Origin: Pseudomonadota bacterium
Lineage (GTDB): Bacteria > Desulfobacterota > Binatia > Binatales > Binataceae
NCBI GenBank assembly: GCA_021325025.1
Contig: JAJPHZ010000015.1
Location: forward strand, 62,001-126,000
Length of the DNA: 64,000 nucleotides
Direction of reading: 5' to 3'
Shown: positions 3,899 through 32,727 of the stretch, one piece after another
Layout of the letters: each line of letters begins with the position of its first letter
How positions within the stretch are numbered: position 1 is the stretch's first letter
Notes under the pieces: generated by a model
The model's database searches: none
What the model was told of the DNA's origin: nothing
The model's input: only the letters and a program-made list of their open reading frames with translations
Translations under genes and position numbers: made by a program

Positions 3899-3991
3899 CC
3901 CCCTGTTTGCCCTCCCTGGGCCACCAATTGTTTTACCCTCAGGCCTGTGACTTATCAATTTGTAAGCCCATCGCGTATCCCCGAGACAATC

Positions 3992-4020
3992 TTGACCCGG
4001 CTTTCTCGATCGCATACTTA
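3992..4020 (+). promoter_or_regulatory. Candidate sigma70-type promoter for the ferritin-like gene
   Basis: TTGACC at 3992-3997 matches five of six -35 bases. A weak -10 follows (TACTTA at 17 bp or CATACT at 15 bp). It sits in the 247 bp gap between divergent dprA and the gene at 4146. The -10 is poor, so the call is tentative. Confidence 0.25.
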
Positions 4021-4145
4021 AGGGCGGGATAATCGGGAAATCCGTCCCCAGGCCGCGGCATGCCGGGGATGTCGCAGGGCGAGTCCCTTTTACGGTAGTT
4101 TGTTCGCAATGGGATCGCAGGAATGGGATGCGGAGGGCCGAGAAG

Positions 4146-4730
4146 ATGCCAGATATGTCCGAAGTGAAAATTAATCTCAGCGAAATGTCGCCTACCGACA
4201 AGCAGGTCTTGATCTTCAGCTTTTATCGCGATGCTGAACTGCGCGGCGCCCGGCTGCTGTTCAATCTGCTCCACCATCTGAAGGATGCCGAGGCCCAGCT
4301 CAAGATGTCGCGCCATCTGGCCGACGAAACCCGCCACGCTTGGTTGTGGACCAAGCGCATTGCCGACCTCGGTGCGGCGCCGATCCTGATCGACGACGGC
4401 TATCAGCGCCGCTTGGGCATGAGAACCGGCGTGCCCAAGGACCTGATTGACCTGCTGGCGTTGACCGTGGTGGTCGAGGAGCGGGCCCGCGCCCGCTACA
4501 TGCAGCACGCTGCGCGGCCCGACGTCGACGCGGAAACCTTGGGTGTGCTCAAAGCCGTGACCGAAGACGAAAGCTGGCACCTGTCGTGGATCGAGCGGCA
4601 GATGCGCGAAATCGCCCGCGAACAGGGCAAACCCGAGCGTGCCGATCAGGCATTGGAACGCTACCGCGAAATCGATCGTGAAGTGTGGGCAAGCTTGGCT
4701 GCCGACGAAGCCAAGCTGTTGGAAACCTGA
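4146..4730 (+). CDS. Ferritin-like diiron domain protein
   Basis: A helical protein of 194 residues with the four-helix-bundle pattern of carboxylate-bridged diiron proteins. It has a Glu in FYRDAELRGARLL, an ExxH in ADETRHAW, a Glu in VVVEERARARY and a second E/H pair in EDESWHLSW. Such proteins store iron, detoxify peroxide or act as small oxygenases (MiaE, rubrerythrin-like); the substrate cannot be told from sequence. ATG 4146 is preferred over the in-frame ATG 4128 because GGAGGG lies 8 bases before it. The next reading frame opens inside its 3' end, so the two genes may be translated together. Confidence 0.8.
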   Translation: MPDMSEVKINLSEMSPTDKQVLIFSFYRDAELRGARLLFNLLHHLKDAEAQLKMSRHLADETRHAWLWTKRIADLGAAPILIDDGYQRRLGMRTGVPKDLIDLLALTVVVEERARARYMQHAARPDVDAETLGVLKAVTEDESWHLSWIERQMREIAREQGKPERADQALERYREIDREVWASLAADEAKLLET

Positions 4731-5806
4731 GAGCTGCTCGCCTGCCCATCCGCGGACCTTGCGTTACATCAACCCGCCCGCCCGGCCCGGACGCCGCCGG
4801 CCAGCGTGGCGGCCTTCTCCGCTCTTTTCTGTTTGTAGCAATAGCCGTCATGTCGTTGGCCGGGTGTGCGCCAAAACCGCGCGTGGCTCCGGGTTCGGTG
4901 TTTCGCGTCGCTTTGCTCACCCCCGGACCGGTCAGCGACGCGGGCTGGAACGCGGCGGCCTTCGAAGGCCTGCAACTGATCAAGTCGCGTCTGGGCGCGC
5001 AGACCGCGATGGTGCAGACCACCTCGCCGGCCGATTTCGACGACGCGTTCCGCGACTTTGGCTCGCGCGGCTTTAATCTGATCTTCGCCAACGGTTTCGA
5101 ATACACCGACGCTGCCATCCAGGCCGGCCGCGATTTTCCCAGCACCTATTTCGTGGTCAGCTCCGGCAACCGCTCCTCCGCCAATGTCGCTTCGGTATCC
5201 TTCGCCCTGGAGCAGGCCACCTATGCCGAAGGGGTGCTGGCCGGCGTGATGTCGCACACCGGGATCGTGGGCGCGATCGGCGGAATCGAATTGCCCGCCA
5301 TCAAGCTGACCTTTGAAGGTTTCCGCCTGGGCTTTACCTCGGTCCGCCCCGCCGCCCGCGTGCTGGTCAGCTTTACCGGCAGCTTTGAGGATGTGGGCGC
5401 CGCAAAAGAAGCCGCGCTGGCCCTGATCGGCCGCGGCGCGGATTTTCTTATCCACAACGCTGATGCCGCCGGTCTGGGCGTGCTGCAGGCGGCCCAGGAG
5501 CGTCACGTCTACGTGTTTGGCGCCTATCGCAACCAAAACGTGGTTGCCTCGCAGGCCGTGCTGGCCAGCGCCGTAGTCGACGTGCCCGATGCTTTTTTGA
5601 AGATCGCAACCGAGGTCAAGGCCGGCACATTTCGTCCCGGGATGCTGACCTTCGGGATGCGCGAGGGTATGGTCAAGGTGGTGTTCAACTCGCAACTGCG
5701 CGACCGGATTCCGGCCGCCGCGATGGAACGCGTCAAGCGCGCCGAGCAGGGCATCATCGACGGGACCATCCGGCTGCCGGAGTTGCCGCGGGCCAACTCG
5801 CCATGA
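4685..5806 (+). CDS. BMP-family substrate-binding lipoprotein
   Basis: A periplasmic-binding-protein fold of the Med/BMP (PnrA-like) family, which delivers nucleosides or related ligands to an ABC importer. A hydrophobic stretch ends in a lipobox (SLAGC, Cys about residue 61). The family opening follows: RVALLTPGPVSDAGWNAAAFEG. The start is uncertain. GTG 4685 is the only usual in-frame start upstream of the signal sequence, and it overlaps the ferritin-like gene by 46 bp and gives an unusually long N-terminal region. No ATPase or permease gene is nearby, so the binding protein looks orphaned or serves a distant transporter. Confidence 0.8.
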   Translation: MGKLGCRRSQAVGNLRAARLPIRGPCVTSTRPPGPDAAGQRGGLLRSFLFVAIAVMSLAGCAPKPRVAPGSVFRVALLTPGPVSDAGWNAAAFEGLQLIKSRLGAQTAMVQTTSPADFDDAFRDFGSRGFNLIFANGFEYTDAAIQAGRDFPSTYFVVSSGNRSSANVASVSFALEQATYAEGVLAGVMSHTGIVGAIGGIELPAIKLTFEGFRLGFTSVRPAARVLVSFTGSFEDVGAAKEAALALIGRGADFLIHNADAAGLGVLQAAQERHVYVFGAYRNQNVVASQAVLASAVVDVPDAFLKIATEVKAGTFRPGMLTFGMREGMVKVVFNSQLRDRIPAAAMERVKRAEQGIIDGTIRLPELPRANSP

Positions 5807-5876
5807 ATCCATCAGCCATTGGAAGCGGCGGCAGCGGGCAACTACAATCGCGCTTCGAAAGCCTCGCCACCGTAAC

Positions 5877-6569
5877 ATGAAGCTTACGATGATAATTGCG
5901 GCCGCGGCTGGCGGCGGCGACAGCGTATTGGGTGAACTGACCGACTGGATCCATCTCGAAGCGATCCAGGCCCTCATCCATCATGCAACCGCGGTAATCA
6001 CCGCCATCTTTCTCTTCGGCGTGACGGCGCGGCTGATTGCCTACCTGATTCCCGACGGACACGCGAAAAAGACCGTGATGATCATCGACGATGTCATCCT
6101 GTTGGCGGTCTTCGCGCTGGCCGGATGGCGCCTGATCAATTACATGTGGATGCGCCCGCACCTGGAAGCGCCCTTGGAGGAACCGGCGGCGAGCTTCCAA
6201 CCCCCTCAGGGCGACGTCTCCGGCGGCGCCGACGCCTTGCTCGCGCAGTGCCGCGCGCAGGCCGCCACCGACCAGGATGTGCATCGGTGCCTCAAGGAAA
6301 AGAACGCGCAGGCCCAACGCGAGCTGGAACAGACGGCGGCGCGGATGACGGCGGATATGCGGGCGCTGGATCGGGTGGGCAGCGCCAAGGTCGGTGCCGC
6401 CAAGGGCTTCGAGATGGCGCAGCAGGCCTTCCTGCTCTATCGCGAGGCGGAGTGCAGATGGCGGGGCGTGGCGGCGCAAAACGGTGCGGGCGACGATACT
6501 TACCAGGCCTGCATGGCCGACCTGGCGCATCGCCGCGCCGCGCAAATCGCAGCACTGCTGGCGAAATAG
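5877..6569 (+). CDS. Membrane protein with LprI-like (DUF1311) C-terminal domain
   Basis: The 230 residues divide in two. The N-terminal third has two membrane segments (around residues 33-55 and 65-85). The C-terminal part resembles the lysozyme-inhibitor LprI N-terminal domain: spaced cysteines (AQCRAQA, HRCLKEK, AECRWRG, QACMADLAHRR) and a central coiled AQQAFLLYREAEC segment. In exported LprI proteins this domain is periplasmic. Here it follows membrane helices, so topology is unclear. It runs convergent to the response regulator gene, with a 29 bp gap. Confidence 0.65.
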   Translation: MKLTMIIAAAAGGGDSVLGELTDWIHLEAIQALIHHATAVITAIFLFGVTARLIAYLIPDGHAKKTVMIIDDVILLAVFALAGWRLINYMWMRPHLEAPLEEPAASFQPPQGDVSGGADALLAQCRAQAATDQDVHRCLKEKNAQAQRELEQTAARMTADMRALDRVGSAKVGAAKGFEMAQQAFLLYREAECRWRGVAAQNGAGDDTYQACMADLAHRRAAQIAALLAK

Positions 6570-6598
6570 AGCTAAAGGCGTGGCGCGGGGTTACGCCC

Positions 6599-7963
6599 TC
6601 AGTTGGCTTCGGGCTCGCCCAGCTTGCGATACAGGGTCTTGCGATCGATACCCAAAACCGTGGCCGCTTCGCTCTTGTTGCCGCCCACCGCGGCCAGGAT
6701 CGCGCGCGCATATTCGCGTTCGAGCTGGTCGATGGTGAGCCGGCGATTGACCGCGTCTTCGATGGTCACCGATTGCGTCTCTCCACCCGCCACTTTGGCC
6801 GGCAGGTCGGCGCGTGTGATGCGGTCATTGCGGCACAGGATGACGGCGCGCGAGATCGCGTTCTGCAACTCGCGGATGTTGCCCGGCCACGGGTAGTGGG
6901 TCAGGCAGGCGACCGCCTCGGCCGTGACCTCGGGAATCGGGCGGCCCGCCTCGGCCGCGGCGCGCGCCAGAAAATGCTTGACCAGCGGCATGATGTCTTC
7001 GGGCCGCTCGCGCAGGGGCGGCAACACCAGCGTGACGGTCGCCAGCCGGTAATAGAGGTCGGCGCGAAATCTGCCCGCGCTGATTGCTTCTTCAAGGTCG
7101 GTGTTGGTGGCCGACACGACGCGCACGTCCACCGGCGTCTCCTCGGTGGCGCCTACCGGTCGCACCCGCTTGTCTTCGATTACTCGCAGCAGCTTGGCCT
7201 GCAACAGCAGCGGCATCTCGCCGACTTCGTCCAAAAACAGGGTTCCCCCGCGCGCTGCCTGAAACAGACCGGTCTTGCTTTGCCGCGCATCGGTGAACGC
7301 GCCCTTGACGTGCCCGAACAGCTCGCTTTCCAGTAGATTGTCAGGAATCGCGGCACAGTTGACGGGGATGAAGGGGTTTTGCTGGCGCCGGCTGCGGAAA
7401 TGCAGCGCCCGCGCAATCAACTCCTTGCCCGTACCGCTTTCGCCCGCCAGCAGAACGCTGGCCGCGCTATCGGCAATCTGGCCGACAATCTCCAGCACCT
7501 CGGTCATCTTGCGGCTGACCGCGATGATGTTCTCCAGACCGTAGCTGTGGGCCAACTCGCCGCGCAGGCGGCGGATCTCCTGGCGCAGATTGCGATCTTC
7601 CAGCGCGCGCGACACCACCAGCAGCAGTTCGTCGCTGGAAAACGGCTTGGTGATGTAATCGAACGCGCCCAACTTCATCGATTCCACCGCAGTCTGAATC
7701 GAGCCGAAGGCGGTGATGATTATCACCGGCAGATTGGGTGCCACGCGCTTGATCTCGGCCTGCAACTGATGGCCGCTCATACCCACCATGCGCAAGTCGG
7801 TGATTACCAGTTCGGGACGTTCGCGCTTGATCAGGTTGAGCGCATCGGTGCCGGAGTTGGCAGCCAGTGCCCGGTAGCCGGCAGAGCCGAGAATTTCGAC
7901 CAGCACACTGGCCATCTCACGGTCGTCATCGACGACCACAATCGTATTGCGTTCCCCTTCCAT
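6599..7963 (-). CDS. Sigma54-dependent response regulator, NtrC/ZraR type
   Basis: 454 residues with the full three-domain layout. The receiver has acidic VDDD, phosphoacceptor D56 in VITDLRM and Lys106 in ITKPF. The AAA+ domain has GESGTGKE (Walker A), GAFTDA (sigma54-contact loop, GAFTGA with one change) and FLDEVGEMP (Walker B). A Fis-type helix-turn-helix is at the end (NKSEAATVLGIDRKTLYRKL). It begins 2 bp after the histidine kinase stop, so the two are one operon. It is divergent from a heavy-metal efflux operon with sigma54-type promoters between, pointing to control of that operon, as ZraSR controls zraP. Confidence 0.94.
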   Translation of the reverse strand: MEGERNTIVVVDDDREMASVLVEILGSAGYRALAANSGTDALNLIKRERPELVITDLRMVGMSGHQLQAEIKRVAPNLPVIIITAFGSIQTAVESMKLGAFDYITKPFSSDELLLVVSRALEDRNLRQEIRRLRGELAHSYGLENIIAVSRKMTEVLEIVGQIADSAASVLLAGESGTGKELIARALHFRSRRQQNPFIPVNCAAIPDNLLESELFGHVKGAFTDARQSKTGLFQAARGGTLFLDEVGEMPLLLQAKLLRVIEDKRVRPVGATEETPVDVRVVSATNTDLEEAISAGRFRADLYYRLATVTLVLPPLRERPEDIMPLVKHFLARAAAEAGRPIPEVTAEAVACLTHYPWPGNIRELQNAISRAVILCRNDRITRADLPAKVAGGETQSVTIEDAVNRRLTIDQLEREYARAILAAVGGNKSEAATVLGIDRKTLYRKLGEPEAN

Positions 7964-20038: not shown

Positions 20039-20068
20039 GAAAACCACTTGACAGCGGGGAGGCTCGTT

Positions 20069-21202
20069 ATGGCAACCGCGCGTGTAATATCGGCGGACTC
20101 CCACATGATGGAGCCGCCCAATCTGTGGGTCGAACGGGTCGATGACCGGCTCAAAGAGCGCGCTCCGCGCGTGATTGCGGCGCAGGACAGGGCCGGACAC
20201 ATCTTTGTCGGCCCCGGCATCAGGCCCTTCCCGGTGGCGGGCGGATTCGCCGCCGGACGCAGCGGCAAAGAGCTGGTCGATTTCGTCGAACGCGCTGAGG
20301 GCTATCATGCCGAACGCCATTGGGATCCGGCCCAGCGCATCAAGGACCAGGACCTCGACGGGGTATGCGCCGAGGTGCTTTACACCACCCTCGGCATGCC
20401 GCTGTTTGCCATCGACGACCCGGAACTGCAGGCGGCGTGTTTCAAGGTTTACAACGACTGGCTGGCGGAATTCTGCAAGTACGATCCGAATCGGCTGATC
20501 GGCGTTGCGCTGATCTCGCTCGAAGACATCGAGGCGGGCGCCCGCGAGCTGGAGCGCGCCGCGCAGATGGGGCTGCGGGGCGCGATGATTTGGGGCGCCG
20601 CGCCCGCCGACAAGCCGTTCTGGCATCGCATGTACGACCCGTTTTGGGCGGCGGCGTCGGAGGCCGGGATGCCGCTGTCGCTGCATCTGATCACCGCCGG
20701 CCGCAAGGCGCCGCGCCCCAGGGAGGAACCGCGCGTCAAATCGGCGGACACCTCCTTTACCCGCCCGTACATGAACATGATCCACGAGGTGCAGCGTTCG
20801 TTTACCGACCTCATCCTGGGCGGTGTGATGATGCGCTTTCCCAAGCTCAGGATCGTGTCGGCGGAAAACGATACCGGATGGCTGCCGCACTACATGTACC
20901 GGCTCGACCATGCGTTCGAGAAATGGGGCGTACAGATGGCGGAGCCGCTGGAGATGAAGCCCAGCGAATACATCCGCCGCCAGCTCTGGGCGACTTTCCA
21001 GGACGATCCGATCGGCCCGATGACGTGGCGTTTCTTCGGCGAGGACAACTACATGTGGGCCTCCGACTTCCCCCACACCGACTCGACCTGGCCGCATTCG
21101 CGCGAGGTTATCGAGCGCAATTTCGCCGGCGTTCCCAAAAAGGTGATGCGCAAAATCACCTGCGGCAACGCCGCCAAGCTCTACGGCATCAGGCTCAACT
21201 GA
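20069..21202 (+). CDS. Amidohydrolase-2 (ACMSD-like) metal-dependent hydrolase or decarboxylase
   Basis: A TIM-barrel enzyme of 377 residues. The metal-binding start SADSHMMEPPNLW, a central SLHLITAG and the C-terminal WASDFPHTDSTWPHS are typical of the ACMSD-like branch that decarboxylates or hydrolyses ring-cleavage products. ATG 20069 follows GGGGAGG; an upstream TTG at 20048 is less likely. It precedes an enoyl-CoA hydratase by 78 bp on the same strand, within a CoA-linked catabolic neighbourhood. Confidence 0.88.
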   Translation: MATARVISADSHMMEPPNLWVERVDDRLKERAPRVIAAQDRAGHIFVGPGIRPFPVAGGFAAGRSGKELVDFVERAEGYHAERHWDPAQRIKDQDLDGVCAEVLYTTLGMPLFAIDDPELQAACFKVYNDWLAEFCKYDPNRLIGVALISLEDIEAGARELERAAQMGLRGAMIWGAAPADKPFWHRMYDPFWAAASEAGMPLSLHLITAGRKAPRPREEPRVKSADTSFTRPYMNMIHEVQRSFTDLILGGVMMRFPKLRIVSAENDTGWLPHYMYRLDHAFEKWGVQMAEPLEMKPSEYIRRQLWATFQDDPIGPMTWRFFGEDNYMWASDFPHTDSTWPHSREVIERNFAGVPKKVMRKITCGNAAKLYGIRLN

Positions 21203-21280
21203 GCGGCGGGCGATTTCGATGGCGGGCGGAGGTGCGCCATTGTATATGACGGCTAGCATTCAGCAGGAGGAACCACCGCC

Positions 21281-22108
21281 ATGTGGGATTACAGCGAATA
21301 CGCGCAGCTCAAGGTCGAAATCGCCGAGCGGGTCGCCACCGTCACTCTCAACCGCCCCGACCGCCTCAACGCCGTCACCAGCCGGCTCCATCACGAACTG
21401 GAAAACATCTGGCTGGATCTGGCTTCCGACCGCGACGTCAACGCGATCATCCTGACCGGCGCGGGGCGGGCGTTTTGCGCCGGCGCCGATCTCGGGGGCG
21501 TGGAGGCGGGCGAGCTGACCCGCGGTGCCGCCAAACGCCATCGCTTCGATCGCGGCCCGGTCCAGGCCGCCAACGGGCGGCGGATCATCGAGAACATGCT
21601 CGATGTCGAGCAGCCGATTATCGGCGCGATCAACGGCGACGCGATTGGGCTGGGCGCCACGCTGGCCCTGCTGTGCGACATTATCGTGGTGTCGGAGACG
21701 GCGCGCTTTGCCGACACGCACGTCAAGATCGGCATCGTGGCGGGCGACGGCGGAGCGGTCATCTGGCCGCTGCTGATCGGGCCGCATCGCGCCAAGGAGT
21801 TCCTGATGCGCGGCCATTACATCACCGGCGCCGAGGCCGGGCGCATCGGAATGGTCAACTACGCGGTGCCGGCCGCGGAAGTCACGACCAGGGCCCGGGC
21901 GCTGGCGCAGGAGCTGGCCGACGGCCCGACCTGGGCGATCCGATGGAGCAAGCTGGCCGTCAACAAGTGGCTCAAGGAGCAGGCCAACCTGATCATGGAT
22001 ACCGGACTGGCCTACGAGATGATGACGCTGAAGACCAAGGATCACAAGGAAGCGGTCAAGGCGTTTTTGGAAAAGCGCAAACCCAACTTCGTCAGAAACA
22101 AAGAGTAG
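21281..22108 (+). CDS. Enoyl-CoA hydratase/isomerase family protein
   Basis: A crotonase-fold enzyme of 275 residues that acts on acyl-CoA thioesters. The CoA-binding and oxyanion-hole motifs are VTLNRPDRLNAV, GAGRAFCAGADLGG and PIIGAINGDAIGLGATLALLCD with the usual spacing. In the second catalytic region the glutamates of true hydratases are not obvious (KIGIVAGDGGAVIW), so isomerase or another crotonase activity is possible. CAGGAGGA precedes the ATG. Confidence 0.9.
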   Translation: MWDYSEYAQLKVEIAERVATVTLNRPDRLNAVTSRLHHELENIWLDLASDRDVNAIILTGAGRAFCAGADLGGVEAGELTRGAAKRHRFDRGPVQAANGRRIIENMLDVEQPIIGAINGDAIGLGATLALLCDIIVVSETARFADTHVKIGIVAGDGGAVIWPLLIGPHRAKEFLMRGHYITGAEAGRIGMVNYAVPAAEVTTRARALAQELADGPTWAIRWSKLAVNKWLKEQANLIMDTGLAYEMMTLKTKDHKEAVKAFLEKRKPNFVRNKE

Positions 22109-22191
22109 ATAAAAGCTCCGACCTGGCATCCGCCGCCCCGCTCCTTCCACCTCCGCGAGCAACGCTGCCGGGCCAAGCGACGCCCGCGCGT

Positions 22192-23382
22192 TCAGCCCTG
22201 GCGCGGCGCGATGCCCGCCTCGGCCAGTATCTCGGCCGTGTGCTCGCCCAGGCGCGGGGCGCGGGCGTAGATGCCCGAGGGAGTGGCGGTGAATTTGATC
22301 GGCGCGCCGGCCAGCACCACGGGCGGATTATTTCCGGGCATCGGCGTTTCCACCAGCATCTCGCGGATCCGCACATGAGGATCTTCGAAGATGTCCTTGC
22401 CGTTGTTGACCGGCCCGCTCGGCACCTTGCCGTCCAGCGCGGCCACGACCTCGCGCGTCGGCCGCGCACTGGTCCATTCCGACAGCAGCGCGCGCACGAA
22501 GGGGGCATTCCTGAGCCGCGCGCGATTGTTGTGCGTGCGTTCGTCGCCGGCCAGTTCAGGCCGGCCGATTATGCCGCACAGCAGTTGCCAATGGTGGTCG
22601 GTCTGGCCGGCGATCGCGACCGCGCCGTCCTGCGTGGGAAAGATCCCGTAGGGCACCAGGGTCTGATGGTTGTTGCCATTGGGCCGCATCACCCGGCCCC
22701 GCATCGAATACTGATAGGTGATTTCCTCGCACAGTGTCAGGATCGCGTCGTACATCGCGACGTCGACGAACTGCCCCTGACCCGTCCGGCGCGCGGCGTG
22801 AATGGCCGACACCACTCCCAGCGCGGCCAATGAGCCGGGGTAGATGTCGCCGACCGCCGCGCCGGTGCGATAAGCGGGACCGCCTTCGGGGCCGGTGAAG
22901 CTGACCAGCCCGCCCATCGATTGCGACACAACGTCGAAGGCGGGCCGGTTGATGTAGGGGCTTTGGCCGGTGCGATGGTCGCCGAAGCCGCGGATGGCGG
23001 CATAGACGAGCGCGGGCTTGCGCTCGTGCAGCGCCTCGTAGCCCAGCCCCATACGGTCCATCGCGCCCGCCCGCAGGTTTTCCACCAGCGCATCGGCGCT
23101 ATCGACGAGTTTGAGCAGCGCGTCGCGGTCCGCCGCGCTCTTCAAGTCCAGCACGACGCTGCGCTTGTTGCGGTTGACGCTGGCGAAGTATCCGCCATAG
23201 TCGCAGCCGCCGGTGTCGGGCGGCAGCGGGCCCATCTGGCGGGTCGGATCGCCGCCGGGCGCTTCGACCTTGATCACGTCGGCGCCCAAATCCGCCAACA
23301 GCATCGTGCAGAAAGGCCCGGCCAGATACTGTGTCAGGTCGATGATCCGGACGTCGGCCAGCGGCCCGGTACGTTGCTTCAT
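22192..23382 (-). CDS. CaiB/BaiF (class III) CoA-transferase
   Basis: 396 residues, one intertwined-fold unit. The N-terminus has IIDLTQYLAGPFCTMLLADL and VIKVEAPGGDPTR. The conserved aspartate that forms the acyl-enzyme is in INRPAFDVVSQSMGG. Such enzymes move CoA between organic acids, here probably activating or finishing a substrate of the neighbouring thiolase-fold/DUF35 pair, 45 bp upstream on the same strand. GGAG lies six bases before ATG 23382. Confidence 0.92.
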   Translation of the reverse strand: MKQRTGPLADVRIIDLTQYLAGPFCTMLLADLGADVIKVEAPGGDPTRQMGPLPPDTGGCDYGGYFASVNRNKRSVVLDLKSAADRDALLKLVDSADALVENLRAGAMDRMGLGYEALHERKPALVYAAIRGFGDHRTGQSPYINRPAFDVVSQSMGGLVSFTGPEGGPAYRTGAAVGDIYPGSLAALGVVSAIHAARRTGQGQFVDVAMYDAILTLCEEITYQYSMRGRVMRPNGNNHQTLVPYGIFPTQDGAVAIAGQTDHHWQLLCGIIGRPELAGDERTHNNRARLRNAPFVRALLSEWTSARPTREVVAALDGKVPSGPVNNGKDIFEDPHVRIREMLVETPMPGNNPPVVLAGAPIKFTATPSGIYARAPRLGEHTAEILAEAGIAPRQG

Positions 23383-23427
23383 CGCTTACTCCGATGGCTG
23401 CGGCTGCGCAGGGGCGCAACAGCCGGC

Positions 23428-23835
23428 CTAACCTGCCGCGGGACGGAATCTTGGCAGCGTGACCTCGTCGCTGAGCCGGTCGAACATCACCTCCACCGCC
23501 ATCCCGCACTTGACCCTGGAGGGCTCGATGCCGACCACGTTGGAGGTGATCTTCACCCCCTCATCCAGTTCGATTACCGCCAGCGTGTAGGGCGCCTTGA
23601 AGGCGGGATGGTAGGCGCGATGCATCACGGTGAAGCTGAAGACCGTGCCGCGCCCGCTGACCGCCACCCAACTGGAGCGCGGCGAATCGCACGCCAGGCA
23701 CAGCGGAGCGGGAGGAAAGCGCAGCTTGCCGCAATTGTCGCATTTTTGTACCGCCAGTTGATGGTGGCGGGCGGCGTCGAAAAAAGGTTTGAGCTCGGGC
23801 GTGACCTGTGGGATCAGTTTGACCTCTTCCGCCAT
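23428..23835 (-). CDS. DUF35 zinc-ribbon/OB-fold protein, partner of thiolase-fold enzyme
   Basis: 135 residues. The rubredoxin-like zinc ribbon uses C32, C35, C46 and C49 (KCDNCGKLRFPP, LCLACDS), followed by an OB-fold. DUF35 proteins form complexes with SCP2-type thiolase-fold enzymes; ChsH2-DUF35 with the aldolase Ltp2 is the best known. The gene directly follows such an enzyme (45 bp gap). GGAGAG lies 7 bases before ATG 23835; the frame extends two codons further to TTG 23841. Confidence 0.9.
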   Translation of the reverse strand: MAEEVKLIPQVTPELKPFFDAARHHQLAVQKCDNCGKLRFPPAPLCLACDSPRSSWVAVSGRGTVFSFTVMHRAYHPAFKAPYTLAVIELDEGVKITSNVVGIEPSRVKCGMAVEVMFDRLSDEVTLPRFRPAAG

Positions 23836-23880
23836 TGACAAACTCTCCGTTGCCTGAAAACCGCCGCTTGACCCGCGACC

Positions 23881-25038
23881 TCAGGGGTTGGTGCCCATAA
23901 CGACCACCGAATGGGTGGACAGGTTGCGCGTCTGGCAGGAGGCCAGCACGACGTCGTGTTTGGGCGATTGGCGCTCGCCGCCTTCGCCGCGCGCCTGGAT
24001 AATCGCCTCCGACACCGGCGTCATCCCCCACATGTAATACGAACTGAGTTCGCCGCCGCCGGTGTTGATGGGGATTCCGCCGCCGTGGCCCAGCCGGGTC
24101 GCCGCTGCGTAGGGGCCCCCTTCGCCCTTCTTGCAGAATCCGTAGCCTTCCAACGAGAGCAGGACGGTGATGGTGTAGCAGTCGTACAATTCCGCGACTT
24201 GTACATCCTTCAGTTCGATGCCCGCCATCCGGAACGCGGTCTCCTTGGCAATCGGGATGCCGGTGTCGAGGTTGTCCAACGTGGGGCCCGGATGATGCCC
24301 CTGGCCGACGCCCAGGATATAGACCGGCGGTTTGCGCAGGTCACGCGCGCGCTCGGCAGAGGTTACGATTACGCATACGCCGCCGTTGGAGACCAGGCAG
24401 CAGTCGTACAGATGCAGCGGCTCGGTAATCCATCGCGAGGCGTGATATTCCTCCAGCGTCAGCGGCTCCTTGTAAAACTGCGCCATCGGATTGCGGTTGG
24501 CCCACTGGCGCTCGGCGATCGCGATGGCGCCCAGTTGATCCTGCGTGGTGCCGTACAGGTACATGTGGCGCTGGGCGAGCAACGCGTATACCCAGTTGGC
24601 GCCGAACGCACCGTACGCGCTGTCCAGGCCGCGCGGCACGCCATAGGCGTCGCCCGCGCTGCCGCCCTTGCCGCCGGGTGCGGGCGGCTTCAGCGGCGCG
24701 TCGGCGAACACGCAGGCCACCACGTTGGCGGTGCCGGTGGCGATCGCCTCAGCCGCCATCGCCAGCGCGGTGCCGGCGCTGGAGCCGCCGGCGTTGACGT
24801 CGGCCAGCAACCGCGTGGTCAGACGCAGCGAGTCCTGCAACGCGAAGGAAGCGAGCCCCTGGTAGGAAACCCCGGTGGTGACCAGCAAGCCATCGAGGTC
24901 GGAGCGCTTGAGCCCGGCATCCTCCAGGGCAAGCGAAATCGCCTCCGCGGCGAATCCCAGGGCACTGGAGTGATCGTAGTTCTTGCCCATCCGGGTGATT
25001 CCCAGCCCGGCAATCGCGGTCTTTCCCTTAAGGCTCAT
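23881..25038 (-). CDS. SCP2-type thiolase-fold protein lacking the nucleophilic Cys (Ltp2-like)
   Basis: 385 residues of thiolase fold, often annotated acetyl-CoA acetyltransferase. Where true thiolases have VNRxCxSG this protein reads VNAGGSSAG, with Gly at residue 85, so it cannot form the acyl-cysteine. The C-terminal half keeps AELYDCYTIT and LGHGGGIPINTGGG. Cys-less members that pair with DUF35 include the retro-aldolase Ltp2 of steroid side-chain degradation. The adjacent DUF35 gene supports a carbon-carbon lyase role. GGAGGA precedes the ATG. Confidence 0.85.
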   Translation of the reverse strand: MSLKGKTAIAGLGITRMGKNYDHSSALGFAAEAISLALEDAGLKRSDLDGLLVTTGVSYQGLASFALQDSLRLTTRLLADVNAGGSSAGTALAMAAEAIATGTANVVACVFADAPLKPPAPGGKGGSAGDAYGVPRGLDSAYGAFGANWVYALLAQRHMYLYGTTQDQLGAIAIAERQWANRNPMAQFYKEPLTLEEYHASRWITEPLHLYDCCLVSNGGVCVIVTSAERARDLRKPPVYILGVGQGHHPGPTLDNLDTGIPIAKETAFRMAGIELKDVQVAELYDCYTITVLLSLEGYGFCKKGEGGPYAAATRLGHGGGIPINTGGGELSSYYMWGMTPVSEAIIQARGEGGERQSPKHDVVLASCQTRNLSTHSVVVMGTNP

Positions 25039-25307
25039 GACATTCCTCCGGCGATCATCTGCGTCCCGGCGCGCCGGAACGGCCTCAATTTGGCAATAGG
25101 ATCATCCCCGGCGCTTGTCAAACAGGGTCGGCACAGGGCATCAGGCGCCGCGGTAACGCTTGAGCTTCGTCGGCACGTTCGGAATGAAAAAGAAAACGTC
25201 CGGTAAGTGTGTCTGTTTACGGAGCGCAAACATCCGGGAATTCGAAGCGTCCAGCCCGGCGCATTCAGAACGAGAAGGAACAATTGTAAATATAATCGAT
25301 GATGTAC

Positions 25308-25325
25308 ACTCATTAAATAATGAGT
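25308..25325. promoter_or_regulatory. Palindromic candidate operator
   Basis: ACTCATTA-AA-TAATGAGT, 8-base perfect arms with a 2-base centre, lies 12 bases after a TATAAT box in the AT-rich gap. The size and symmetry suit a dimeric repressor site. Confidence 0.4.
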
Positions 25326-25371
25326 TACACGGACCGCATATACTAAACCTGGAAAATTAATATTGTGCAGC

Positions 25372-25430
25372 ATGTCAGTTAAATAACCTGTCACGAATAT
25401 TCATCGCGGAAGAAACATTGATGATATACT
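25372..25430 (+). promoter_or_regulatory. Promoter with degenerate PHO-box-like repeats
   Basis: ATGTCAG (25372), CTGTCAC (25388) and TATTCAT (25398) resemble halves of the CTGTCAT-N4-CTGTCAT PHO box, though with irregular spacing. TATACT at 25425-25430 is a good -10, and transcription from it would start near 25437, right at GTG 25440. Confidence 0.35.
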
Positions 25431-25439
25431 GAATGACGC

Positions 25440-26327
25440 GTGACGGCTGTGAACTATGACTTGAGCCTGTGGCGAGGTGGGGTAGTGGACGGATGCGGTT
25501 CAGTCGAAATGAGCGGGCTGCACACCGAGGTTGCGGAGCGTGTGCCGCGGCGCGCGTTTCGCTCGATCTGGATTTCGGACCTGCACCTGGGGACGCCCCG
25601 ATGCCGCGCGCGCGAATTGCTCGACTTCCTGGATCGGCACGAGGCTGAAAACCTCTATCTGGTCGGCGACATCGTCGACGGATGGGTCACAGGTCCGGCA
25701 TGGCGCTGGAGCCGCGCGCAGGGCGCCGTGGTGGGCAGGATTGCGCTTTGGCACAGACGCGGGGTGCGTGTTGTATTCCTGCCCGGCAACCATGATGAAA
25801 TCAGCCTCGACCTGGCCCACGCGCTGCTCGGGCCCGTGCCCGTCGCCGCGCATCTTATCCATCGCACGGCCGATGGCCGCCGGATGCTGGTGATTCACGG
25901 CCATCAGTTTGACGGCTCGCTCAATCCCAACCGTTGGATGCACCTGCTGGGGGCACAGGCCTACCATCAGGCACTACGTATCGACCGGTGGTACAGTGAA
26001 GGATGTGTCAGGGGAGGGCGCATCGGCGCCCGACCCGCCGCCTATTTCAAGCAGCGCCTGGGCCGGGCGGTCCGCTATCTGACCGACTTCGGCGACCGCG
26101 CCGTGCTGCAAAGCGCGCGGCGCCATCGGGCCGACGGTGTGATCTGCGGCCACACGCATCTGCCGCAGCGGCGCGGCATCGGGCCAATCAGTTACATCAA
26201 TGATGGCGACTGGGTGAAGAACTGCACCGCGCTGGTCGAGGACCACGACGGCGGCCTGCGGTTGCTCCATCGCGACGCCAACGGCGGCTGGCGGGAGTTC
26301 GACAGCCCCGCCGAGGAGGCGCGGTGA
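25440..26327 (+). CDS. Calcineurin-like phosphoesterase of the LpxH/PlcP type (COG2908)
   Basis: All five metallophosphoesterase motifs are present in order: ISDLHLG, GDIVDGW, LPGNHDE, IHGHQFD and ICGHTHLP, with INDGDWVKNCTALVE near the end as in PlcP-like members. Relatives either hydrolyse UDP-2,3-diacylglucosamine (LpxH) or remove phospholipid head groups to give diacylglycerol under phosphate stress (PlcP). The 4-base overlap with a diacylglycerol glycosyltransferase favours the second role. The start is uncertain: GTG 25440 would be nearly leaderless from the TATACT box, while ATG 25509 leaves 22 residues before the first motif. Neither has a clear ribosome site. Confidence 0.85.
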   Translation: MTAVNYDLSLWRGGVVDGCGSVEMSGLHTEVAERVPRRAFRSIWISDLHLGTPRCRARELLDFLDRHEAENLYLVGDIVDGWVTGPAWRWSRAQGAVVGRIALWHRRGVRVVFLPGNHDEISLDLAHALLGPVPVAAHLIHRTADGRRMLVIHGHQFDGSLNPNRWMHLLGAQAYHQALRIDRWYSEGCVRGGRIGARPAAYFKQRLGRAVRYLTDFGDRAVLQSARRHRADGVICGHTHLPQRRGIGPISYINDGDWVKNCTALVEDHDGGLRLLHRDANGGWREFDSPAEEAR

Positions 26328-27565
26328 ACATCAACGGTGGGCCGCCGGCCGAGCGGCGTGTGGACCTGATTTTTTTCGATGCCGGCGGGGGCCATCGCGC
26401 CGCGGCGGCGGCGCTGGCGGCGGCCGCCCGTGACCAGGGGCGCTCCTGGCAGCCCAACCCGGTCAATCTGCGCGACCTGCTGGGCCCGCTCGATTTCATC
26501 CGCAACAGCATCGGCGTGCGCTTCGAGGATTTCTACAACGCAATGCTCAGCCACGGTCTGACCGTGGCGACGGGACCGATGCTGCGGCTGGCGCAGACGC
26601 TGATTGCACTGCGGCACAAACGCGCGGTGCAAGCGCTGGCGGGCCATTGGCAGACCCAGGCCCCGGCGCTGGTGATGTCGCTCATCCCCAACTTCAACCG
26701 CGCCATCTTCGAAGGCTTGCGCGCCGCCGACGATGCCGCGCGCCGTCCGCCCACGCCGATGGTAACGGTGCTGACCGACCTTGCCGACTATCCGCCCCAT
26801 TTCTGGATCGAGCGCCAGGAGCAGTATTTCATCTGCGGGTCGGCGCGGGCGGCCGAGCAGGCGCGCGCCATGGGCCATCCGCCACAGCGCATATTCCAGA
26901 CGTCAGGGATGATCGTGCGCCCGGAATTTTATCAGCCGGCGCCGCTCAACCGCGACCATGAGCGGCGCAGGCTGGGGCTGGCGGCGCAATTGCCGACCGG
27001 CCTTGTGATGTTCGGCGGATTCGGCTCGCGCCGGATGATCGCGATTGCGCGGCGCGTGGCCGCAGCGCGGCTGGACACGCAGCTCATCTTTTTATGCGGC
27101 TACAATCAGCCGCTGGCACGGCGCCTGTCCGCGATGCGCCTTTCGTTTCCCCATCACGTCGAGGGCTTCACCCCGCGACCCCATTACTTCATGCGCCTGG
27201 CGGATTACTTTATCGGCAAGCCCGGACCCGGCAGTCTGAGCGAAGCCTGGCTGATGGGACTGCCGGTGATCGTCGAGCGCAACGCCCGCACGATGGTCCA
27301 GGAGCGCTACAACACCGAATGGATCGAGCAGCAGCGGCTGGGCGTGGTGCTGAGTTCGTTCCGGCATATCGCGCGCGGCATCGCCCCGATGCTCGACGCC
27401 GCGCAACTGGCGGGATTCCGCGCCCGCGTGGGCGCGCTTGACAATCGCGCGGTTTTTGAGATCCCGGCGATCGTGGATCAACTAATCGCTTCGCCGCCGC
27501 ATCGCACAGCGGGCCAGTCACTGCACGTCGATGGCCGCGACCTTGGAGAAGCGGATTCGGCCTGA
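26324..27565 (+). CDS. MGDG-synthase/UgtP-like diacylglycerol glycosyltransferase (GT28)
   Basis: 413 residues. The MGDG-synthase-type N-terminal domain opens FFDAGGGHRAAAAAL, and the GT28 donor domain shows VMFGGFGS, the acceptor/donor loop GKPGPGSLSEAWLMGLPV and a conserved EWIEQQRLGVVL. The family transfers a hexose from a UDP-sugar to diacylglycerol at the membrane. GTG 26324 overlaps the phosphoesterase stop by 4 bases, so both proteins are made together: one could release diacylglycerol, the other glycosylate it. The 3' end runs 48 bp into the convergent heme-protein gene. Confidence 0.85.
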   Translation: MNINGGPPAERRVDLIFFDAGGGHRAAAAALAAAARDQGRSWQPNPVNLRDLLGPLDFIRNSIGVRFEDFYNAMLSHGLTVATGPMLRLAQTLIALRHKRAVQALAGHWQTQAPALVMSLIPNFNRAIFEGLRAADDAARRPPTPMVTVLTDLADYPPHFWIERQEQYFICGSARAAEQARAMGHPPQRIFQTSGMIVRPEFYQPAPLNRDHERRRLGLAAQLPTGLVMFGGFGSRRMIAIARRVAAARLDTQLIFLCGYNQPLARRLSAMRLSFPHHVEGFTPRPHYFMRLADYFIGKPGPGSLSEAWLMGLPVIVERNARTMVQERYNTEWIEQQRLGVVLSSFRHIARGIAPMLDAAQLAGFRARVGALDNRAVFEIPAIVDQLIASPPHRTAGQSLHVDGRDLGEADSA

Positions 27566-28336
27566 GGCGCCGGCAAAGCCGCCCAGCGGCGCCCGATGGC
27601 CGCCTATCTCCACTGTGCCGGCCGGCGATGCCTTCTCCGTGCCGTACACCAGCGCGGCACAGATGGTGTATCTGCCCCGGCGCGCCGGCGCGGCCAGTTC
27701 GTAGGTCACGCTGGCGGTTGAAAATTTGTTCGCCGCAAGGTCGGTCTTGACGCCAAAGACCACCACAAAGTTGAGGTTGCGCGCCAGCCCGTCGTAGCGC
27801 CGCTCAAGCCATTGAGCCTGCGTCTTGCCGTCGGGCCCCACCACGTGCGGCGGCGACTGGATTTGAAATCCCTCGCCCTGGATGGGGCGCGCCTGGTCGC
27901 GCAGGTCGATGTCGAGCAGCATGATTCCCAGCACCGGACCCGACCCGCCCTGCGCCTTGACCGTGGCGGTGAAGGTTTTACCCGCCTTTACCGACTGTGG
28001 AACTTCGATCGAGATGGTCGAATTGGCATCGACCTCTTCCACGTCGGCAATCAGCCGGGCGCGCTGCTGCGCAGTTAACTTTGCGTAAGGTCCCGAGCCT
28101 GCCTTGATCGCGTCGATGTGTGCGACGGCGGCGGTACGTTTGCGCGCCTGCTCGGCGGGCAGGTCGCGCAGTTGCTCGATGCCGACCGAGGAATGGCATC
28201 CGGCGCAGTAGGGCGCCGCGTCGGTGACGTCGTGCAGCGGACCGCCGGGATAGGCCCACGCGCGCGCGCACACCAAAGGTCCGATCGCAAAGCAAAGCGC
28301 CAGGATGATAATTGCCGACGGGATTTTATTTCGCAC
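27518..28336 (-). CDS. Exported protein with one CxxCH heme motif, hypothetical
   Basis: 272 residues from GTG 28336 (GGAGG eight bases upstream). A classic signal peptide (about 1-28) is followed by YCAGCHSSVG, a single c-type heme site, then a helical linker and a beta-rich C-terminal half (roughly 110-272) that looks like an immunoglobulin- or reeler-like domain (SIEVPQSVKAGKTFTATVKA). The combination suggests a periplasmic electron-transfer or redox-sensing protein. No specific family was recognised and no cytochrome maturation genes are close. Confidence 0.6.
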   Translation of the reverse strand: MRNKIPSAIIILALCFAIGPLVCARAWAYPGGPLHDVTDAAPYCAGCHSSVGIEQLRDLPAEQARKRTAAVAHIDAIKAGSGPYAKLTAQQRARLIADVEEVDANSTISIEVPQSVKAGKTFTATVKAQGGSGPVLGIMLLDIDLRDQARPIQGEGFQIQSPPHVVGPDGKTQAQWLERRYDGLARNLNFVVVFGVKTDLAANKFSTASVTYELAAPARRGRYTICAALVYGTEKASPAGTVEIGGHRAPLGGFAGASGRIRFSKVAAIDVQ

Positions 28337-28464
28337 CGAGCTCCCCTCCGTCGGGTTCAATCAATAGCCTGGGGCAGGCGCGATGCAAGCGCCGCGGATG
28401 CCGGGAGGTGCGCAAGCATCGGCGCAAATCTTGCTTGCGTCCTCCGGTGCGCAAGCAAGTGGTT

Positions 28465-29553
28465 ATGAACCGGAGGACTGATTTCAGCGGCTTGGACCTC
28501 AACATCGGCCGCGCCCGCATCGGGCTTTCCCTGGTCACGCTGCTTTCCATCTACCTCGATCCCACCGTCGGCGGAGCCTTCCGCATCGGACCCACCATGC
28601 TGGCGGTCCTGATGCTTCACCTGGCCAGCAGCATCGCCTTGTACGCCGCTGCCGAAAGTGGTCTGGCGCCCGGCCGCCTGCCCGCGGTGTGGACGGTGAC
28701 GGATATGGTTTTTGCCAGCGCGCTGGCGATTTTAGCGGAGGGTCAGACCGGCCCTTCCTATGTCTTTTTCGCCTTTGCGATCATCTCTGCCGGCTGCCGT
28801 TTCGGCTTCCGCGTCACGACTTTGGTGACCTTGTGCAGTGTGATTGTTTACCTGTTGACAATTGAGTTCGGCCACGGGTCGCAGAAGAGTCTCTACCTGA
28901 TGCGGCCGGCTTATCTGGCGATCATCGGCTACCTGATCGCGTTTTTGGGTGAGCAGCGCGTCAACTTCGAAACGCGCATCCGCGACCTCGAATTGGCGGC
29001 CGAGCGTGAACGCATCGCGCTTTGCCTGCACGACGGCTACGTCCAGGAGCTGGCCGCCTTCAATCTGCGTCTGGCCGCCTGCCGCGAGCTTTTGGTCAGG
29101 CAGCGATGGTCCGAAGCGCTGGAGCAGGTAACCGAGCTGCGGCGTGGTGTGGCGCGCGAGTACGACGAGGTGCGGTCGTACCTGCGGACCCTGGTGAATC
29201 TGGACCAGCAAGCTGCGTCCGAGGCGCTGTGCGGCAGGTTTGACACGCAGTTCACGGTCCAGATGTCTTTTTCCGCGCGCGGACCGATGGTCGAGCAAAT
29301 TTTCCAGATCGTGCTTGAAGGCATCAGGAACGCGTGGCGGCATGGGCGCGCCGCTTGCGCCCGTATCAACGTCGCCGCGGCCGGCGATGTCATCAGGATC
29401 GTCGTCGAAGACGACGGTAAGGGCTTTGAGCAAAAACAAACCCTGCCATGGGCGATCGCGTCCAGGGTTGAGGAATTTGGCGGCCGCCTCAGGGTCGGCA
29501 ACGACCAGCGGGCCGGAGCGCGGCTGGAAATCGAAATGCCGGCGGATGACTGA
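28465..29553 (+). CDS. NarL-family membrane histidine kinase (HisKA_3)
   Basis: 362 residues. Five or six membrane segments fill residues 18-165. The HisKA_3 dimerisation helix carries the phosphoacceptor H189 in ALCLHDGYVQELAAF, and the ATPase domain has EGIRNAWRHGRA (N box) and VEDDGKGF (G1). The usual GLGLxGMRER lid is replaced by TLPWAIASRVEEF, so the G2 box is degenerate. ATG 28465 is used; an in-frame GTG two codons upstream is possible. Its stop overlaps the regulator start by one base (TGATG). Confidence 0.85.
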   Translation: MNRRTDFSGLDLNIGRARIGLSLVTLLSIYLDPTVGGAFRIGPTMLAVLMLHLASSIALYAAAESGLAPGRLPAVWTVTDMVFASALAILAEGQTGPSYVFFAFAIISAGCRFGFRVTTLVTLCSVIVYLLTIEFGHGSQKSLYLMRPAYLAIIGYLIAFLGEQRVNFETRIRDLELAAERERIALCLHDGYVQELAAFNLRLAACRELLVRQRWSEALEQVTELRRGVAREYDEVRSYLRTLVNLDQQAASEALCGRFDTQFTVQMSFSARGPMVEQIFQIVLEGIRNAWRHGRAACARINVAAAGDVIRIVVEDDGKGFEQKQTLPWAIASRVEEFGGRLRVGNDQRAGARLEIEMPADD

Positions 29554-30200
29554 TGCAATCGCCGATTCGCCTGATCATCGCCGACGACCACGCGCTCTTC
29601 CGCCAGGGGCTCAAATTGCTGCTGGCGCTGCAGGACGACTTGACGGTCGTGGCCGAGGTCGAGCGCGCCGGGCAATTGATACCGATTGTGGCGGCTACAC
29701 CGTGCGATGTCGTGCTGCTTGACCTGCAGATGGACCGCTGGGTGGCTGAAGAGATCGCGCCGCTGGCGCACCGGGCGCCGGTGTGCGTGCTCACTGCCAG
29801 CGAACGCATCGAGGATGCGATGGACGCGCTGCGCAAGGGTGCGCGGGCGATCGTTCACAAGCGCTTCGCCGTCGAAACCCTTGCTGAGGCCATTCGCACA
29901 GTGGCGGGCGGGATGGTGTGGGTCCCGCCGATGCTACAGGCGGAATTGGCTGCCCAGACCAATGCGACGAGCGCCAGGCGGCTTACGGCCAGAGAATCAG
30001 AGATCGTCCGCCACGTCGCCGCCGGACTGCGCAACAGCGAGATCGCCGCACGGCTTGCAATCAGCGAGGGGACCGTCAAAATCCACCTCAACCGAATCTT
30101 CCAGAAACTGGCCATCCGCGACCGCGTCGAGCTGACCCTGTATGCGCTGCGTGAGCATCTGGTAACGGCTCCCGGCCGCGGCCGCTGGCAATCGTCCTGA
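29553..30200 (+). CDS. NarL/LuxR-type response regulator
   Basis: 215 residues. The receiver has ADDH, phosphoacceptor D57 in VLLDLQM and Lys in IVHKRF. The LuxR helix-turn-helix reads LTARESEIVRHVAAGLRNSE and SEGTVKIHLNRIFQKL. It is translationally coupled to the kinase. The target genes are unknown; the ammonium operon lies 408 bp downstream but has its own promoter. Confidence 0.92.
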   Translation: MQSPIRLIIADDHALFRQGLKLLLALQDDLTVVAEVERAGQLIPIVAATPCDVVLLDLQMDRWVAEEIAPLAHRAPVCVLTASERIEDAMDALRKGARAIVHKRFAVETLAEAIRTVAGGMVWVPPMLQAELAAQTNATSARRLTARESEIVRHVAAGLRNSEIAARLAISEGTVKIHLNRIFQKLAIRDRVELTLYALREHLVTAPGRGRWQSS

Positions 30201-31047: not shown

Positions 31048-32727
31048 ATGCTGATACGAATCAACAAGTTGCGGTTCGCAATAGCTATAGCTTTGACTGC
31101 CGCCTTTGTGGGCGGCTGGATGCTGCCGGTACTGGCGCTTGCCGCCGACAAGCCGGCGGCCGCAGCGGCACCAATTACTACCGCGGATCTCAAAGCCATC
31201 AGTGGTCCGACCACGGATCAACTGGCCGCAGGCGATCCCGGCGGCACGCTGACGGGCTCCGTCAACGACATTGTAGTGGCCGATTCCAAAAAGGGCCTCA
31301 CGCTTGCTGACCTGGTAAACATGGTGGGGCAGAACCGGATCGCGATTAACATCGTATGGACGCTGATCACCGGCTACCTGGTGATGTTCATGCAGGCCGG
31401 CTTCGCCGCGGTCGAGACCGGGCTGTGCCGGGCCAAGAACGCCAATCACACCATGATGATGAACTTCATGGTGTATGGCTTCGGGCTGTTCGCCTACTGG
31501 GTAATGGGTTTTGCGCTCCAGCAGGGCGGATGTGCGCCGATTGCCAACCTGGGCGGCCTCAATCCGCTCAATCATGAGTTCGCCGTCAACTTCCTGGGCG
31601 GCAAACCTTGGGGACTGTTCGGCCTGAAGGGATTTTTCCTCAGTGGCACCACCTACGACGTCGGCATCATGGTGATGTTCCTTTTCCAGATGGTGTTCAT
31701 GGATACCGCCACTACCATCGTAACCGGGGCGGCGGCCGAACGATGGAAGTTCGTCGCGTTTGCGATTTCAACCTTCTGCCTGGGCGCGGTCACTTATCCA
31801 TTGTACGGCAACTGGGCGTGGGGCGGCGGATGGCTGTCGCAGTTGGGCGTCAACTATGGTTTGGGTCATGGCTACTGCGATTTCGCGGGTTCAGGCGTCG
31901 TGCACGCGGTGGGCGGCATGACGGCGCTGGCCGTGTCGATGATAATCGGCGCGAGAATCGGCAAGTACAATCGCGACGGCACCCCCAACCCGATGCCAGG
32001 CCATGACATCACGATGGTGCTGATCGGATGCTTCATCCTGGCCTTTGGGTGGTTCGGCTTCAATCCCGGCAGCACGCTGGGCGCCTCGGGCGCGGGCAAT
32101 CTGCGCATCGGTTCGATCGCCGTCAACACGATGCTCGCCGGCGCCACCGGCTCCTTCAGCGCTATCCTCTACATGTGGATTCGCTTCGGCAAGCCCGACG
32201 CTTCGATGTCGGGCAACGGTCTGCTGGCCGGCCTGGTGGCGATTACCGCGCCCAGCGGATTCGTCAACACGGTGGGCGCGGCGATTATCGGCTTTGCCGC
32301 CGGCATGCTGGTATGCCTGAGCGTTGAGTTCGTCGAGCGCGTGATGAAAATCGACGATCCGGTCGGCGCCATCTCGGTGCACGGCACCTGCGGGCTATGG
32401 GGCGTTCTGTCGGTGGGATTGTTCGCCGACGGGACCAGCAACTACGGCGGCAGTTGGAACGGCGTCAATGGCTCGGTGACCGGCCTCTTCTATGGCGATC
32501 CGGGTCAGTTCGTCGCCCAGCTCATCGGCGGCGCCACGCTGGTGGGAATTGTCTTCACGCTCTCCTACCTGTTCAATTGGGCAGTGGACGGGATTGTCGG
32601 CCAGCGCGTGAGCGCCGCCAGCGAACTGGAAGGTCTTGACCTGCCCGAAATGGGCGCGCTCGGCTATCCGGAATTCCAGTTGGTGACTCCGGGCCTGGGC
32701 CGTTCCATCGAAATCGCCGGACGCTAA
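31048..32727 (+). CDS. amt: Ammonium transporter, long Amt-family form
   Basis: 559 residues against roughly 400-480 for usual Amt. The core keeps the twin-histidine pore: H286 in DFAGSGVVHAVGG and H445 in AISVHGTCGLWG, with D278 at the ammonium recruitment position. The N-terminal 95 residues are extra: a signal-like segment (about 10-33), then an Ala/Pro/Thr-rich stretch predicted outside the membrane. The gene has GCGGAGA before its ATG and is part of a nine-gene same-strand run with glnK. PII normally blocks Amt from the cytoplasmic side when nitrogen is ample. Confidence 0.94.
   Translation: MLIRINKLRFAIAIALTAAFVGGWMLPVLALAADKPAAAAAPITTADLKAISGPTTDQLAAGDPGGTLTGSVNDIVVADSKKGLTLADLVNMVGQNRIAINIVWTLITGYLVMFMQAGFAAVETGLCRAKNANHTMMMNFMVYGFGLFAYWVMGFALQQGGCAPIANLGGLNPLNHEFAVNFLGGKPWGLFGLKGFFLSGTTYDVGIMVMFLFQMVFMDTATTIVTGAAAERWKFVAFAISTFCLGAVTYPLYGNWAWGGGWLSQLGVNYGLGHGYCDFAGSGVVHAVGGMTALAVSMIIGARIGKYNRDGTPNPMPGHDITMVLIGCFILAFGWFGFNPGSTLGASGAGNLRIGSIAVNTMLAGATGSFSAILYMWIRFGKPDASMSGNGLLAGLVAITAPSGFVNTVGAAIIGFAAGMLVCLSVEFVERVMKIDDPVGAISVHGTCGLWGVLSVGLFADGTSNYGGSWNGVNGSVTGLFYGDPGQFVAQLIGGATLVGIVFTLSYLFNWAVDGIVGQRVSAASELEGLDLPEMGALGYPEFQLVTPGLGRSIEIAGR

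Follow-up and report, generated by a model that had tools for sequence, protein, structure and literature searches.

The window, by which we mean the whole stretch of 64,000 nucleotides that was analysed, comes from a draft genome of 5.36 Mb (G000:C22). Soil MAGs under the labels Candidatus Binataceae, Candidatus Binatus, Deltaproteobacteria or Proteobacteria are the nearest named relatives, and the host is accordingly regarded as a soil bacterium of the poorly known phylum Binatota, related to Ca. Binataceae. A phosphoesterase gene and a glycosyltransferase gene form a pair in this window, with the following features:

25440..26327 (+): longest open reading frame (ORF) of the phosphoesterase, GTG start at 25440
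25509..26327 (+): PlcP-like metallophosphoesterase, likely true ORF with ATG start; contains PF00149, the motif GNHDEI and the onset of homology
25440..25508 (+): N-terminal extension of the longest phosphoesterase ORF, probably untranslated; not conserved in any relative
26324..27565 (+): glycosyltransferase of the MGD1/UgtP type (GT28-like), GTG start within the last phosphoesterase codons
26324..26327 (+): stop/start overlap of 4 bases (GTGA), sequence gcGTGA
25251..25508 (+): region upstream of the pair scanned for a Pho box; best site at 25372-25389, antisense

The start of the phosphoesterase probably lies near ATG 25509 rather than at GTG 25440, because the similarity to its homologues sets in only at about residue 38 of the longest ORF. 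The first 37 residues or so are shared with no relative. The overlap of 4 bases between the two ORFs, which had been pointed out in the earlier note, is read directly from the window (gcGTGA). Of 16 additional Binatota loci, some of which are the same genome reached twice, 14 show it as well. The overlap is a sign of translational coupling between phosphoesterase and glycosyltransferase.

The pair is isolated. The upstream gene (23881-25038) has the opposite orientation, and the downstream gene (27518-28360, minus strand) is convergent; its product looks secreted, with a haem-like CAGCH motif and a weak choice-of-anchor V match. Further downstream on the plus strand follow a NarX/NarL-like two-component system (28312-30200) and an ammonium transporter that carries a long extension at its N-terminus (31048-32727). 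On the other side, an acyl-CoA degradation block (20048-25038) comprises an amidohydrolase, an enoyl-CoA hydratase, a class III CoA-transferase, a ChsH2-like OB/zinc-ribbon protein and a thiolase. It has no evident link to the pair.

The phosphoesterase is a calcineurin-like protein (Pfam PF00149, E 1.8e-12) and has the metal-ligand motifs D-x-H, GD, GN[HR]D, H and GHxH of the LpxH-like (COG2908) kind. Its identity is 40-46% to PlcP-type proteins and about 25% (22-27%) to LpxH, at comparable lengths. Bit scores reach 208 against PlcP-type proteins of Burkholderiales and 30-46 against LpxH. The protein WP_003091510 of P. aeruginosa, a PlcP, shows 39.7% identity (187 bits). Its gene adjoins those of an adenylate cyclase, presumably PA3217 CyaB, and of a glycosyltransferase of family 1. 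Judging by these neighbours, we equate WP_003091510 with PA3219, the PlcP described in PMC8528852.

When the PDB is searched with the phosphoesterase, by sequence or by fold, LpxH comes first, and no PlcP structure is among those matches. The public annotation of such proteins is UDP-2,3-diacylglucosamine diphosphatase. Both observations would fit a divergent LpxH in lipid A synthesis, with the glycosyltransferase decorating lipid A or an envelope intermediate. This explanation is highly improbable, since the LpxH model TIGR01854 gives the phosphoesterase 42 bits at a cut-off of 190.35 and the motif GNHDEI carries the GNHDE of PlcP-type proteins, not the GNRDFL of all six proteobacterial LpxH rows (a distant, LpxH-like row from Bacteroides reads GNHDIW). 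In the phosphoesterase tree, a branch with support of 100/99 parts all seven LpxH rows from the rest, and the Binatota phosphoesterases form their own clade on the PlcP side. The deep order of this tree is weakly supported, and AU tests do not reject alternative topologies (p 0.20-0.26). One of these attaches LpxH at the stem of the Binatota phosphoesterases (p 0.26), a point against the PlcP reading. A role in lipid A appears very unlikely from the gene content, because the genome encodes both LpxC and LpxI (E 1.6e-40 for the latter), LpxI occurs in 54 of 57 relatives with LpxC near-universal, and the phosphoesterase is patchy, with a match in just 17 of the 57, several of them fragments.

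The earlier note had made its reading depend on the grouping of the phosphoesterase and on the presence of another LpxH. A genome search indeed found no second LpxH in the window's genome, but the phosphoesterase does not fall inside LpxH, and LpxI is present. Identity as LpxH is rejected on the basis of the TIGR01854 score, the GNHDE motif, the side of the tree and the LpxI in the genome. The claim that the protein is PlcP-like rather than LpxH is upheld by the identity values, the motif and LpxI.

The glycosyltransferase reaches 14.7 bits against PF06925 (MGDG_synth), which is below the gathering score of 25. A PF06925 search of the window's own genome gave no match, because the glycosyltransferase family falls below the cut-off of this model. 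Its best solved relative is Arabidopsis MGD1 (phmmer, E 2e-25), to which the profile of the glycosyltransferase family aligns over nearly the full length (positions 13-396, E 7e-41). MGD1 is followed by a processive diacylglycerol glucosyltransferase, matched by the C-terminal part (E 6.5e-22). The AlphaFold2 model of the glycosyltransferase, built without alignment rows from plasmid records, has a pLDDT of 85. A Foldseek search with this model placed both MGD1 entries at the top (4wyi with E 4e-20 and TM 0.85 by target length) and MurG third (E 2e-10).

With plant MGD1 (4WYI/4X1T) the protein shares the fold, the full-length alignment, four key residues and the donor motif K[AP]GPG. The catalytic H155 of MGD1 corresponds to H24, R156 to R25, the essential D279 to D152 and W287 to W161, and the donor motif KAGPGTI is found as KPGPGSL (residue numbers and roles in MGD1 were taken from PMC7419546). 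Unlike in plant MGD1, H251 and H256, of which H256 is essential in MGD1, are replaced by I121 and R126; the identity in the structure alignment is 24%, and the two proteins belong to separate clades. In the glycosyltransferase tree, the proteins of Binatota, Burkholderiales, Acidobacteria and Nostoc form one clade (99/94) apart from MGD1, the branch of which is long. The clade on the UgtP side is separate (98/94), and Binatota and Burkholderiales form sister clades (93/87). Judged from these comparisons, the glycosyltransferase is MGD-like and belongs to a bacterial clade distinct from MGD1 and UgtP. It is not filed as an MGDG synthase because its clade lies apart from MGD1, and the PF06925 score is also below the cut-off. 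The plant-type MGDG synthase to which the earlier note likened the partner is the closest solved relative by sequence and fold, but not a member of the same clade (99/94).

No GT4 match was found in the glycosyltransferase with Pfam, and the window's genome contains no full-length match to Agt. A GT4 Agt as partner is ruled out by these two results. The overlap together with the profile and fold matches bears out that the enzyme tightly coupled to the phosphoesterase is a lipid-type glycosyltransferase akin to MGD1 and UgtP, not a GT4 Agt.

An intact glycosyltransferase is present in 12 of 35 genomes of the family, including the window's own, and the phosphoesterase lies immediately upstream in all 12. 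A genome-wide scan yielded 80 loci, and the phosphoesterase adjoins the glycosyltransferase in 10 of the 11 that belong to Binatota. The pairing is not due to chance. Second glycosyltransferase paralogues without a phosphoesterase occur in two genomes (L019 and L020) and also at L060, where, within 3898-6951, the paralogue is flanked by a gene of the redoxin family, from which a single unknown ORF separates it, and by an Fe/Mn superoxide dismutase gene. Because of these unpaired paralogues and the surroundings of L060, the acceptor may vary within the glycosyltransferase family. In family members without the pair, short isolated fragments of phosphoesterase or glycosyltransferase (38-114 residues) were found at L016, L018, L033, L034 and L035 (G003, G022, G034, G012), one of them with an in-frame stop. 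These fragments resemble what would be left of the locus after its loss and decay.

Among 300 genomes of Burkholderiales, a close glycosyltransferase occurs in 6, and a PlcP adjoins it in 2 of these (L155 and L156). At L155 the PlcP precedes the glycosyltransferase and overlaps it; at L156 the gene order is reversed. These PlcPs share 57% (L155) and 56% (L156) identity with the PlcP of P. aeruginosa, and the phosphoesterase tree places them among further betaproteobacterial PlcPs (99/99), apart from those of Binatota. The most economical interpretation is that glycosyltransferases of one kind were probably joined to different PlcPs more than once, because the Burkholderiales PlcPs are of local descent and in one case stand in reversed order, and their glycosyltransferases are sister to those of Binatota. 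A class-wide search of 369 genomes yielded mostly weak glycosyltransferase homologues, of which the tested ones fall on the UgtP side. Beyond the known Burkholderiales it gave one closer copy, which is broken (L168). In Extensimonas vulgaris (L144, 1513-3302), a PlcP adjoins an acyltransferase of the PF13444 kind (OlsB domain), and the MGD-like glycosyltransferase is located elsewhere in the genome. A link of this PlcP to ornithine lipids is possible.

The 69 loci outside Binatota are mostly from Acidobacteria and Extensimonas. A phosphatase of the PAP2 superfamily lies divergently upstream of the glycosyltransferase in 44 of them, which come from related lineages and are not 44 independent events. 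Acidobacterial examples, on the minus strand and divergent from the MGD-like glycosyltransferase, are L105 (4228-4764) and L107 (3941-4837). A gene with a PHP domain is found upstream in 16 of the 69 loci, mostly between the PAP2 gene and the glycosyltransferase, and at the acidobacterial locus L095 a different metallophosphoesterase overlaps the glycosyltransferase downstream. PAP2 enzymes of the lipid-phosphate-phosphatase kind convert phosphatidic acid to diacylglycerol (DAG). Since PAP2 enzymes, too, make DAG, the common denominator of the glycosyltransferase neighbours would so be the supply of DAG. No published account of the acidobacterial linkage between PAP2 and glycosyltransferase was found in the open-access literature.

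Two MGD-like glycosyltransferases are located on the Nostoc plasmid pn1 (L038, 5962-7173 and 9492-10706) in a biosynthetic cluster of the polyketide type. Their neighbours, judged by eye from the translations, are a short-chain dehydrogenase, a UDP-galactopyranose-mutase-like protein and a methyltransferase-like protein.

The identity of the two genes, the fold of the glycosyltransferase, its conserved catalytic residues, the coupling and conservation of the pair and the repeated association with phosphohydrolase families that generate DAG point to a two-gene unit of membrane-lipid remodelling, which would lead from phospholipid via DAG to glycosyl-DAG. We give this reading a probability of about 0.75. 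The first enzyme would be a metal-dependent phospholipase C of the PlcP type, which hydrolyses a membrane glycerophospholipid to DAG and the phosphorylated head group. The second, translationally coupled enzyme would be a membrane-associated GT-B glycosyltransferase of the bacterial MGD1-like clade, which is predicted to move a hexose, for which Gal, Glc and GlcA are candidates, from a UDP-sugar to DAG and thereby to form a phosphorus-free glycosyl-DAG. That the two enzymes have these activities, that they share DAG as an intermediate and that it is channelled between them are predictions. The DAG-glycosylating route, which had already been proposed in the earlier note, gains support from comparative genomics, as the glycosyltransferases of this kind repeatedly have PlcP or PAP2 as neighbours. 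The replacement of H256, essential in MGD1, by R126 counts against this pathway.

The Nostoc homologues in a polyketide-type cluster and the oxidative-stress neighbours of the Binatota paralogue without phosphoesterase would be in line with a lipid acceptor other than DAG, such as a ceramide, a hopanoid or a polyketide-type lipid, which the phosphoesterase would dephosphorylate. We regard this as improbable, since the nearest solved enzymes, MGD1 and UgtP, use DAG, the PlcP and PAP2 families form DAG, and the partner in Burkholderiales is 57% identical to P. aeruginosa PlcP.

Phosphate control of the pair was analysed by a Pho-box scan with an E. coli-type matrix. The best site upstream of the pair (25372-25389, antisense) has 9.1 bits and a shuffle p of 0.125, which is not significant. 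As a positive control, the box of P. aeruginosa plcP was recovered with the same matrix, with 0 of 200 shuffles as good, and upstream of pstS in the window's genome the matrix gave a site with p 0.03. No consistent site was found with this matrix upstream of the pairs of the relatives. The missing conserved Pho box counts against induction at low phosphate and would agree with a pair that makes glycosyl-DAG constitutively, as a normal membrane glycolipid or lipid anchor and not in response to phosphate starvation. The acidobacterial clade members also fit, as they adjoin PAP2 and the phosphatidic-acid route need not be induced by starvation. However, characterised PlcPs act under phosphate limitation (PMC4796936, PMC8528852, PMC9239053), and family members can do without the locus, which would suit a trait needed only under certain conditions. 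We consider constitutive synthesis less likely than not, and the pair may be induced at low phosphate.

The operon of PlcP and the GT4 enzyme Agt is established in SAR11, P. aeruginosa (PA3219-PA3218) and Methylosinus (PMC4796936, PMC8528852, PMC9239053). As in this operon, the PlcP-type gene of Binatota lies directly upstream of, and is coupled to, a gene for a lipid glycosyltransferase, and the predicted route runs from phospholipid via DAG to glycolipid. In contrast, the Binatota pair has an MGD1-like, GT28-type enzyme instead of a GT4 Agt, the host belongs to Binatota, and no significant Pho box precedes the pair with the E. coli-type matrix. Six plcP neighbourhoods have already been catalogued, with other glycosyltransferases among them (PMC4796936). 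The nearest published precedent is found in the type Ia methanotrophs Methylobacter tundripaludum and Crenothrix, where a YpfP-like DAG glycosyltransferase is encoded beside plcP (PMC9239053). In this plcP-YpfP/UgtP pairing, too, PlcP is joined to a DAG glucosyltransferase that belongs, in a wider sense, with MGD1 and UgtP. The methanotroph enzyme has been described as being of the B. subtilis YpfP type, whereas the Binatota enzyme lies outside the UgtP clade. On the Fuscovulum plasmid (L045; cf. types 3/5 of PMC4796936), a PlcP-family protein likewise has a lipid glycosyltransferase from a different family as its coupled partner, but this is a processive GT21 enzyme, and the phosphoesterases are only 37% identical.

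The partner of PlcP is thus indeed an MGD1-like enzyme instead of a GT4 Agt, as the earlier note had it, but the combination is less new than implied there, because PlcP beside a YpfP-like DAG glycosyltransferase has already been reported (PMC9239053). A pairing of PlcP with an MGD1-like enzyme in Binatota was not found in the open-access literature. Most likely, the locus encodes the PlcP route to glycolipids that is already known, with another enzyme, one resembling that of chloroplasts, in the second step. A wider and more tentative reading, which we would put at somewhat less than even odds, concerns the bacterial MGD-like clade as a whole, with its putative DAG glycosyltransferases from non-phototrophic Binatota, Acidobacteria and some Burkholderiales. 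Its members may have been joined repeatedly to an available DAG-producing phosphohydrolase, which would be PlcP in Binatota and, independently, in Burkholderiales, but PAP2 in Acidobacteria. They may supply soil bacteria with a glycosyl-DAG like that of chloroplasts, as a membrane lipid that spares phosphorus.

If the proposed pathway is true, PlcP-based lipid remodelling would extend to the uncultured soil phylum Binatota, and its second enzyme could come from an MGD1-like family. The pair would then be a testable candidate through which soil bacteria make glycolipids free of phosphorus. From the PAP2 linkage in Acidobacteria, DAG is also predicted as the substrate of many still uncharacterised homologues of the galactolipid enzyme of chloroplasts.
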